DNA of 64,000 nt from Mesodorylaimus sp. YZB2_4 (Eukaryota; Nematoda; Enoplea; Dorylaimida; Dorylaimidae), in NCBI GenBank assembly GCA_030248295.1, contig JASANH010001445.1:1-64000 (forward strand), read 5' to 3'. The translations under genes were made by a program, and so were the position numbers. Below, one piece after another: positions 55,583-62,066 of this stretch. The notes under the pieces are model-generated. The model was not told where the DNA came from and searched no databases. It saw only the letters and a list, made by a program, of their open reading frames with translations. Position 1 is the stretch's first letter; the number at the start of each line of letters is the position of its first letter.

Positions 55583-55625
55583 AAACAAGTATCTGCTCAG
55601 TCTACGAGAGAGGATATAAAATGAG

Positions 55626-57900
55626 TTGAAAGGAGAGAGAAAGGAGCAACAAACCACCGTCCGCACGTTGGGGACGAGGTCCACGAGAAGATGGACACTC
55701 CACGAGGTACCGCCATTGGCCCGAATAACAGAATTGTTCACAAGCGCGGATGGCGAAATTCGCTCTGCCAATGTCAAGCTGTCATCCGGGAAGATTCTGA
55801 AGAGAGCCATCGTCCAGTTGTACCCACTAGAATTTGTCGGAGGTGGAGACACGACGAGAAACGTGAAACAAGTGGGACCAGAAGGAGGTGGAAGATCTCT
55901 GGATGACAGTCCTACGGCGACTCAAACGCCTGCAATGAAAGTGCAACAGACCTCGCAAACCATAGCGCGACCAAGACGAGACGCAGCAGACTCCGCTCGG
56001 AAAAGAATACAGGCCATCGCCCGAGAAGGAGAGTCAGAGGACGAAGAGACACTGGACAACAGCCAGCCTATACGTCACAGGGAAAGGCGTGGGATCACTG
56101 GACATAAGGCTATGTCAAGCCTGACCATGATCACTATGTGCGTTTTGACAATTATCAATCTGCTCGCACCGTGCAATGGAGTAAAACCGTTGCTTTTCGA
56201 AAAGGGACACGCGAAATTGGCGATACATTTGTCTGATGCTTATCCATGCACTTTCCACAATAGCAATGCTTCCGAGAAGGTTTCCTCAATCTCAATCATG
56301 ATATACAAGCGCAATATCGCCAAGTATAGCAGTCCCGCATTTAAATGCAGGGAGATAAGAAAAAAATCGCCACATGTACCGATTTTGCGAAGGCTGGATC
56401 ATACACACAGACGGTGGACGAAGCAATCCCTGTCTCCGAAACGGAATACAAGGTCATGATACGAGATCGACGTTGCAGGAAGGGCCCCCTCCTTGGAGGT
56501 GCTGTGGCTTTTACCGAAAATCATGTCGACCTACACGACAGGAAATGCTTGGGATTGCAATTTCAGACCTGTCACGGCCAGATGGAGTCGAATTTAGCGA
56601 ATGTAGCAGATTGCAATTACGATAAGGAAAATTGTGTGCTGCACGATCAAGCAATGCTCACGTGGACCAAGAACCAGAGTGCTTAGTGCGAATTTGTTTC
56701 GTGGAAACGAGTGAAAGGAAAACTATGGAACAATCAGTTTCTCAGTGACGACTTCGAGATTGCCCTGACATGGAGTCAAACTCCAGACAAGATAAAGTTG
56801 TGTGATGGGACTATGGGATCGTTGACCGACCAAGGGGTGCCAATCGTCTTCTCTCCCGCGATGACAGTCGAATCCAGTCTTCCGAAGAGGAGAATACGGG
56901 AAACCAAGGACACTGAAGGACCATCAGATTTGGTCGCAATGAGACTCCAAGCACTGGAAGCACGTCTGGAGGTATTTTTTCGAGATTCCCTAAATCAAGC
57001 CTTTCAATCAGTTTGTCGGACGATCAGAGAAATGCAATAATTGGACATTTTGTTAGCGCATGCAGAACCAACACTAGTGGCCAGGAGAGTCCTCAACGAT
57101 TCAAACATAATGGCCAGACTGCACGGGCAAATTCTGGAAGTGTGGCCGTGAACTCCAGTCGAACGATTTCAGTTTCTCAGCGTGACTGACCGATGCACAG
57201 AAGGGATACCAGTCAATTACACGGTCAGCGGACAACGGGTGTCGGCATACATGGATCCAAAGTCGAGGGTCATCTTTACGAGCTCAGCACGAGCCGAATG
57301 CGACCAGGTGCAAGAAACGTACATATCAGACGACAGTGCCAAATTTTCCTTTTCACTGCACACGACGGCGCCATGCGACTTCAAGCAAACCAATTCCTCA
57401 TCCGTCCAGTCCATTTGGCTCAAATAGACCACTACGCAGACTTCAAAACAGTCGTGCGCAAGCCATTGACGCTATATTCTCAAAAGGAACTGCGAGGTCA
57501 AGTAAGTTTAAATGACCTCTTCTCCGCTTTGGCCAGCCACGCCAGGGTCCTGCACCAGCTCAGCCAAGCAGCCAAAGTTCCGTCAGACCCCACAGCCAAA
57601 GCCATATTGGACACAGCGTCTCGATACACGCCCCGGGGGACTTTAGGGTCAATTAACTGCCCATGCACATTGGGTCTGGGTTCAATTTTGCTGCATAATC
57701 GTGACAAGCCAGATCCTCTTTGGGGTCATCCGAAAGGTGATACGACGAACCATAAGACGGGACCAACAACCGCAAACCAACTTGGCGCCGCCCATACTCA
57801 TCCAGGCGCCACCAGCAGGCCCAAAACCAAATACCGAAGGACCGACGACAATAGCGGCCTTGGTTCACGAAATAAAGAGAGAAATGCGTGGGATAGTGAT
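55626..57900 (+). pseudogene. Env-like third region of the BEL/Pao element, degraded
   Basis: Downstream of integrase, a series of broken frames encodes a signal-anchor-like hydrophobic stretch (about 56113-56178). It is followed by Cys-containing extracellular-type sequence in changing frames to about 57430 and a basic/Pro-rich tail ending near 57904. Some nematode BEL elements carry an env-like gene, so this is inferred to be such a gene. Multiple stops make it non-functional. Its exact relationship is not determined. Confidence 0.5.
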
Positions 57901-59510: not shown

Positions 59511-62066
59511 ATGGCTGACCAAAACCAATTGCCAAAGAAATTAAGACGAGATTTTGTGGAAAAGATAAGCGTAGCAGGTTGGAGAGAGGCTTTCGACGAG
59601 CACGTGTTGTGGATAAGACGTATCTACCAGGTGTCGTTACTCGTGGTCACTGGTCTTTGCATCAAGTGCGTTTATGAAGGGGCCAAGAAATGGATGGCCA
59701 GCAGTGGATACACTGACGAGATCACCGACCTGTTCAATGTTGGCTCATTGCCCGCGTCCAATGTGACTGCGTGCGCTCAGATCTATTTCAATGAAACTTA
59801 CGTCAGACAAAACGTGACCATCCCGTCAAAAATAAAGACTAATTTAATCAACACGGGCCAACTAGACGAGTCCTACCGTCAATTGACCCTTTTTCTATCA
59901 ATGATCACTCGACCCCGAGTTTCTTATCCTCTTTTTATGAGCCATTTTGGGAAGGTCATGCAAACGAATCCTCAAATAATGGATTTCGCTAATTTTGCGG
60001 TCGATGCAATGCCTCAATGCAGAGCTATGCTCAATCGATGTTGGTTCAATGGGCAAGAGTCCGACTGCTGCTTAAAAGCTGTCCTCTCATTCGACGACGA
60101 TGGCGTGTGTTACGTCTTGAGTGTAAGTTCGTGATTTTTGGGGTTGACGTTTGAGTTTTTTTAAACGCTGAGAGATGTGGGAAGTTTGTGCATGCTAGCG
60201 AATCATGGCGGACGATCAAATGATGAGCAGTGAGGGTAAACTTTTGATGACGGGGGGGGGGGGGAACGAAAGTCTGTGCCAGGTATGACTCCCATAGCCA
60301 GTATGGTGTGTTAATACACGCGCTGAAAAACGCTTGGATTTAGCACTCTTCTCGTCTCCATGAGGGTTTTATCAGTGAGTCAGCGTATGCTCAACTGACG
60401 ATACTGTATTTTGAGTACCTTTCCAGAGAAGGTTTTTACAGCGCGATGGGGGAAGGTGGAGGAAGATTGTAGTGGACCTGAATGAGGACGAAAATACACT
60501 AATGACAATCCAGAATTTTTTTAGCTAAACTTTGACAGTGATAATGCATACCCATCTTCTGGCACTGTCCTCCAGACCACGCCCGGGCCTCGCGGTGGTC
60601 TGATCATCCAAGCGTCATTATCACTTCAACATTTTCCTTGGCTGGAGAACGATGCCCAAAATGGGTTTCGCCTTCTCATAAGCCCAGTTCCATTTTCTTC
60701 CATTTCATCACCGGTCACTGCGCCCCATGCTGCTGACAAGGGAACATCGCCAACCGTTAAGTCGAATTTTAGAAAACCAAAAATTGTAACATGTTCTTAT
60801 GGGCAAAAGAAAGCTCTGTGCAAAATATTGGAGGCGTCTGGCCAACTGGTCAGCAATGGTCAGCGCGCAGAGTACAGTGAAATTTTCTAATTCTGCTGGA
60901 ATTTTTGGGGTTATCCAGGAAAAACCCCAAACCCGAGTATTGGATGCTTAAACTCGAAACTCCGAACCCAAAAATCTAGTTTAAAAAGAACTTTGCGTGT
61001 TTTCCTCAACGCTCAGCTTCGTTAACACACAAAAATTCGGGACTTTAGACGCTGACCCCAACTGACCAGTTGGCCAGACGCCTCTTATATTTTGCACAAA
61101 GCTTTTTTTAGCATCCAGGAATATATAACAATTTTTGGTTTCTCAAAGTTTGAATTAACGGTTGGCGATGTTCCCTTGTGAGACGTTCGTCAAAGTGTCG
61201 GCGTCGAAGCACAGTCTAACTGCAAACTGCGCTTCGCATAATCATTTGGTAATGCCTGGCGGCCAATTCTTTTATTACGACCCCGAAGAATTCAGCTGCA
61301 ATGGCAGAGAATTTTTTGGCATGATTGAACGATTGGCTTCGTGCCAAGCACCCTTCTTCTTGCACAAACCAAATAAGACTAGAGCATGTAAGCCTTTTTA
61401 AACTTACCTCGAAACCGCGGTATTCGCGCATGAGGATATGCGTGAAAAGTTTATAAAATTAGTTGTCAAACATGAAGAGAATAATAATGCGTCGTCGCAA
61501 GTAAGATGTTATTTTGCATTCACTTTCCCATTCTTGTTTTCGCAGCAACCACTGTAGTTGCTGCAGGTGAAACGTGCGTTGGACGATGTGGATAATACAT
61601 TGAAATATGTCATGTCGGACAAGACGAGATGTCCACATCACTGTCAATACTGGACTTACAGCATTTCAGTAAGTTTCAACGATCTGGCAGTGAATGAGCA
61701 CTCAGCCAATGTCATGTTCAGCAGAATCCATGTCTACTACGCCGAGTTCGGATACCGTCAGCACGTGCAAGTAAAACAAAGCACGGCTTATTTGTATTGT
61801 ATTGTGTGACTTCGACAGCGAAGCTCAGATCAGCAGCGCAGCTTATTTAGAATTTTATGCATTTTGTAACATTTTTATCCTATATTTGGGCATGTCAGTG
61901 GTCAGTTTTTTCATTTACTTTTCTATGTTCCGCGCTATCTCCACTTTCTTCGTAAGTACGGCCTAGGAAGCATGCTTAGCCGACAGCAGCGGCAGGTCCG
62001 AGTGACACCATTGTAGTATTGTCCACTTTGGAAAAGAACGTTGTTGAAGAAACTTTGTTTCTTTGA
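59511..62066 (+). CDS. DEG/ENaC-type cation channel subunit
   Basis: Exons: 59511-60122, 60576-60755, 61183-61387, 61463-61500, 61558 to about 61746-61800, about 61819-61951, and 61980-62066. The start MADQNQLPKK precedes the first membrane helix (about residues 38-60). The large extracellular domain shows MLNRCWFNG, DDDGVCYVLS at the end of exon 1, RGGLIIQASL opening exon 2, and RCPHHCQYWTY. The second helix contains the selectivity-filter-type LGMS. These sodium channels act in mechanosensation, touch or peptide gating. Exons 2 and 3 were once one exon, now split by a MITE. The join near 61750-61820 changes frame and needs either a weak GTTCGG donor or a 1-nt shift. The last intron would be only 28 nt; reading through it gives VSTA and a stop. 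Confidence 0.82.
60737..61178. mobile_element. MITE, 442 bp, 3-bp target duplication, inside a DEG/ENaC exon
   Basis: The ends are perfect 24-bp inverted repeats (CAAGGGAACATCGCCAACCG...). Similarity extends for ~140 bases on both sides, making a palindromic element. TGA flanks it on both sides. Deleting it and one TGA leaves the codons GCT GCT GAG ACG in frame. Confidence 0.88.

Follow-up and report, generated by a model that had tools for sequence, protein, structure and literature searches.

The host gene and the inserted element

The window, that is, the whole 64,000-nucleotide stretch of Mesodorylaimus sp. YZB2_4 DNA that was analysed, belongs to contig C237 of a 145-Mb genome (C-numbers are contig labels and L-numbers locus labels). 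On its forward strand it carries three exons of a gene of the DEG/ENaC channel family, the second of which is divided by a 442-bp palindrome. The features of this locus are the following:

59511..60122, + strand: DEG/ENaC exon 1, an open frame with putative start codon and donor
60525..60736, + strand: exon 2, part to the left of the element, delimited from paralogs
60734..60736, + strand: TGA, left copy of the target duplication, preceded by C at 60733
60737..61178, no strand: 442-bp palindromic non-autonomous element, likely of Tc4/Tc5 type
60737..60760, + strand: left 24-bp terminal inverted repeat, 0 mismatches
60756..60757, + strand: proposed donor GT (ACC|GTTAAG), score -4.4, background-grade
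61155..61178, - strand: right 24-bp terminal inverted repeat, 0 mismatches
61179..61181, + strand: TGA, right copy of the target duplication, followed by G at 61182
61181..61182, + strand: proposed acceptor AG (TTGTGAG), score -3.75, background-grade
61179..61500, + strand: exon 2, part to the right of the element, its end put at about 61500 from the paralogs and the frame
61399..61401, + strand: in-frame TAA in exon 2; the frame is open there in all five paralogs shown
61567..61960, + strand: exon 3, its probable start set by analogy with the paralogs, where a conserved cysteine follows 21 residues later, its end approximate
61785..61839, + strand: about 55 extra bases relative to five aligned paralogs, approximately placed and containing an in-frame TGA (61807-61809)
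61906..61911, + strand: T-run one base shorter than in the five aligned paralogs

The assignment to the DEG/ENaC family comes from exon 1, which matches the ASC domain of these channels (PF00858) with an E-value of 4.2e-9, above the cut-off; the exon 3 piece scored below the cut-off against the same profile (E 0.018), and the right part of exon 2 and the TM2 piece gave no match to it. The family (e.g. L069-L088) is well represented in the genome, with 115 exon matches obtained from the 97 candidates that were scored out of 254; it includes neighbouring copies on contigs C471, C116 and C12, and some members contain stops. A search for relatives of the channel in a protein database brought up 1897 candidates, none of which scored at E 0.001. 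Upstream of the channel gene, a frame of 279 amino acids from stop to stop (55620-56459, + strand) resembles DUF5641 weakly (E 8.8e-4, 19.9 bits against a cut-off of 23.1). As we take this domain to be the end of a BEL/Pao-type pol, a retroelement probably lies there.

In all 19 paralogs that were fetched exon 2 is open through the place of insertion, from which it follows that the element did split an exon; this read-through, along with the PF00858 match of exon 1, supports the first-pass annotation in its claim that a MITE-like element split a DEG/ENaC exon. Stops are present elsewhere in some of these 19 paralogs (e.g. L083 and L086). When the flanks are joined without the element they read in frame (HAAETFVKV), so that the accompanying claim of an uninterrupted in-frame exon holds as far as 61398, but no further, because of the in-frame TAA at 61399-61401. 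The exon had also been taken to end at 61387, whereas by comparison with the paralogs it extends to about 61500. By-eye comparison found the window copy to be the sole one within a DEG/ENaC exon among the places listed.

A C|TNA|G-targeting family of about 500 copies

The palindromic element at 60737-61178 and its TGA duplication had already been recognized in the first-pass annotation, and both are confirmed here. Its inverted 24-bp ends are perfect, and the two matches that they give in the window compare with none in 100 shuffles; the arms are 82% identical over 129 bp, and the predicted RNA fold reaches -215 kcal/mol (z -20). It is devoid of coding capacity. Thus, in being short and non-coding, with inverted ends, a target duplication and many copies, it has the features of a MITE.

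The copy number became apparent from the genome search for the 24-bp terminal repeat that had been suggested along with the element: allowing up to 3 mismatches, 519 forward and 518 reverse matches were recovered as against 0 for the reversed control, which indicates a family of about 500 copies. For 25 complete copies, a sample from which single-end copies such as L011 and L038 were left out, we derived a consensus to which the window element is 92.8% identical; its closest relative among them is L002, at 97.7% identity. One copy (L007, 1498-1940) is embedded in a frame with a weak likeness to retrotransposon gag (E 6.3e-4, under the cut-off), and can be read as one transposon inside another.

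A perfect 3-bp duplication is present in 21 of the 25 complete copies and has the form TNA in every one of them, its middle base being A in 8, T in 7, G in 5 and C in 1; in 19 of the 25 the flanking C and G are retained as well, giving the full C|TNA|G. The middle base of the target is free, since across the genome exact ends follow CTTA 92 times (39 and 53) and CTGA 93 times. A PIF/Harbinger (Tourist-like) origin, which a 3-bp duplication would suggest, was therefore dropped: the duplication of that group is given as TWA (PMC4482050), and TGA and TCA targets are here as frequent as TAA and TTA. It is a consequence of the C|TNA|G rule that an AG comes to stand immediately behind the insertion, whichever strand is read. 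Accordingly, AG is found directly behind the element in 24 of the 25 copies, 21 of which have it on both strands. As for the other end, CCGTTAAG is retained in the left arm of 20 of the 25 copies, and the first 19 bases of the element, before the GT at 60756, contain no stop in any frame.

The likely transposase

Taken together, these features mark the 442-bp palindrome as a non-autonomous transposon that likely belongs to Tc4/Tc5, a kind that targets C|TNA|G. These are transposons of the Tc1/mariner superfamily, described from nematodes, arthropods and tardigrades, and Tc4 is stated to insert at C|TNA|G and to duplicate TNA (PMC11071193); a title cited in the same paper terms Tc4 fold-back. 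The window element resembles them in its target and duplicated TNA (19 and 21 of the 25 copies, respectively), and in the long inverted repeats and fold-back structure seen in its arms and predicted fold. It differs from them in that it is only 442 bp long, is without coding capacity and has an end sequence of its own, the likeness being one of target and structure.

One of the element's ends is also found again close to a gene for a Tc5-type transposase. The genome contains 29 matches to the C-terminal domain of the Tc5 transposase (Transp_Tc5_C), as against none in any of 14 control genomes, and on contig C436 a gene of this type lies 1.4 kb from an end of the element family. That end has the exact 24-bp terminal repeat, its arm agrees with that of the window element at 82% over 129 bp, and TCAG comes directly after it. 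Its interior is unlike that of the MITE, although 46 bp match the MITE's middle at 78%. The frames upstream of the end match Transp_Tc5_C with an E-value of 3.8e-9 and HTH_Tnp_Tc5 weakly (E 0.036, below cut-off), with the transposase split over two different frames. The 1.8 kb of sequence read there, which lies outside the 839 bp separating gene from end, showed no left end. Hence, given the split frames, the weak HTH_Tnp_Tc5 match and the missing left end, it is this single end, together with the target rule, that ties the element to Tc4/Tc5. The Tc5-type gene of contig C748 was considered as a partner and rejected, none of these ends being present in the 681 bp behind it. For these reasons we call the element likely, and not proven, to be of Tc4/Tc5 type.

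DDE_Tnp_4 transposase genes are also plentiful in the genome (152 matches, 150 scored of 307 candidates). The NuwaII group of the PHIS superfamily, which uses DDE_Tnp_4, is likewise stated to target C|TNA|G (PMC4482050), so the element resembles this group in its target, and the abundance of such genes would be in keeping with mobilisation by a NuwaII rather than a Tc4/Tc5 transposase. We consider this unlikely: the end and arm shared with the element adjoin a Tc5-type gene on C436, whereas in by-eye comparison of the places listed these ends nowhere enclose a DDE_Tnp_4 gene, and the closest pairing among those places, on contig C84, leaves 4 kb between gene and end, the latter pointing away from the gene.

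Probable decay of the host gene

Beyond the insertion, the channel gene carries several lesions relative to its paralogs. The first is the TAA in exon 2, for which no in-frame GT-AG bypass was found with donors from 61330 to 61400 and acceptors up to the next conserved motif. The second is the stretch of about 55 extra bases in exon 3; it is not decisive on its own, as the TAA is, because splicing at a 58-nt GT-AG pair (61771-61828) would let the frame continue beyond it. This pair covers most of the extra bases and keeps the frame, and the near-repeats GGCTTATTT and CAGCTTATTT border them (61768-61850 of the window). The third, the one-base deficit, sits in a T-run and may be an assembly error. 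Since the stop codon and the length changes set this gene apart, at those places, from the paralogs with which it was compared, we regard it as most likely a broken gene rather than the host of a newborn intron. Its sequence is thus read most simply as that of a young DEG/ENaC pseudogene. None of the 18 near-invariant sites of exon 3 is changed, a pattern that fits no more than a recent decay.

That same conservation, along with the proneness of long T-runs to error, would favor a view in which the gene is intact, the TAA and the exon 3 changes being assembly errors, and the element either disrupts a functioning gene or is spliced from it on rare occasions. Such a scenario strikes us as very unlikely, as it needs three errors within 500 bp: the substituted base, the additional stretch of about 55 bases and the missing base. 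Moreover, near-invariant sites are changed at 5 of 41 in exon 1 and 3 of 19 in exon 2, whereas most paralogs have 0 to 2 changes (12 of 19 for exon 1 and 13 of 19 for exon 2), a few having far more.

Splice sites and the question of a new intron

The first-pass annotation further proposed that the element is now spliced as an intron, from the GT at 60756 to the AG at 61181-61182. These sites do exist, and their use would keep the frame and add six residues (net +18 nt), as it had stated; left unspliced, the frame stops at 60888, inside the element. We scored both sites with matrices built from the one DEG/ENaC gene family. The donor matrix draws on intron 1 only, for which 13 of the 19 paralogs supplied a donor and the six with no motif match were left out, and the acceptor matrix holds 33 paralog sites from introns 1 and 2, where these could be placed. 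All 13 paralog donors read GTAAGT (11) or GTAAGA (2), and the base before the AG is C or T in all 33 acceptors. Among the 3612 GTs on the + strand of the window the proposed donor falls at the 64th percentile, and among the 3803 AGs the proposed acceptor falls at the 61st. With leave-one-out minima of 11.2 for real donors and -1.75 for real acceptors, the donor is far off the real range, while the acceptor, at -3.75, lies somewhat under it and not far below. Within the element, GCTTTTTTTAG (61092-61111) is strongly acceptor-like, with a score of 12.0; around it, in 60600-61200, there is no donor above 1.9.

The insertion sites of the 25 copies show no excess of open frames. The longest stop-free stretch over the joined site has a median of 79 amino acids, as against 89 at random positions of the same flanks; it reaches 100 amino acids in 9 of the 25 copies, the corresponding share of random positions being 44%. 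Ten joined frames of other copies, chosen from the twenty longest of the 25 copies, were scanned against Pfam, and none exceeded the cut-off, the gag-like frame of L007 giving E 6.3e-4 and the others E 0.019 or worse.

The element is comparable to introners as described in PMC9860276 in its inverted ends, its target duplication, the AG supplied by the target and a possible frame-preserving junction. It differs from them in that its splice sites are weak, genome-type splice sites being absent from its ends, and in the lack of enrichment across open frames in the 25 copies. Given the background-grade sites and the want of any open-frame excess, neither the window copy nor the sample of 25 out of about 500 copies looks introner-like. 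Among the papers covered by the literature search, none joined tardigrades with introners.

Another precedent is Tc1, which Rushforth and Anderson (1996) reportedly showed, with RNA, to be removed from C. elegans pre-mRNA by splicing. The present case is similar in that a Tc-type element lies in an exon and might be removed at makeshift sites. It differs in that the C. elegans case is RNA-based and the element studied here is known from its sequence.

A broader view would be that Tc4/Tc5-type elements are predisposed to become introns, because TNAG stands behind nearly every insertion on either strand and because their symmetrical ends provide a GT 19 bases in with no prior stop; some of the roughly 500 copies would then be spliced, forming an animal introner class of which the channel copy is a failed or failing member. 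We hold this to be highly improbable. We give least credence of all to a newborn intron in a functional channel, spliced at 60756 and 61182 with six residues added: the GT and AG are present with the frame preserved, the target rule leaves an AG behind 24 of 25 copies, and introners with one splice site of their own, the other borrowed, and added codons are described (PMC9860276), but the TAA at 61399 further down the same exon, the lesions of exon 3, the background level of both donor and acceptor and the lack of an excess of open frames across the 25 insertion sites all speak against it. The general idea of transposon-born introns is sound, the window copy being a poor example of it.

Implications

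We therefore favor, with a probability of roughly 0.8, the reading that a non-autonomous transposon, likely of Tc4/Tc5 type, lies in exon 2 of what is most likely a DEG/ENaC pseudogene, where it is not expected to function as an intron. On this account a Tc5-type transposase acting in trans would have put the element into a CTGAG of the exon, a transcript left unspliced would run into the stop within the element, and no efficient splicing would be expected to remove the insertion. As it stands, the locus presents an ordinary transposon in a most likely dead member of a large gene family. The family of about 500 copies, with a target that supplies an AG, nevertheless constitutes a test bed for transposon-born introns in an animal, in which the rate at which a chance acceptor suffices to make an intron would be as informative if low as if high.
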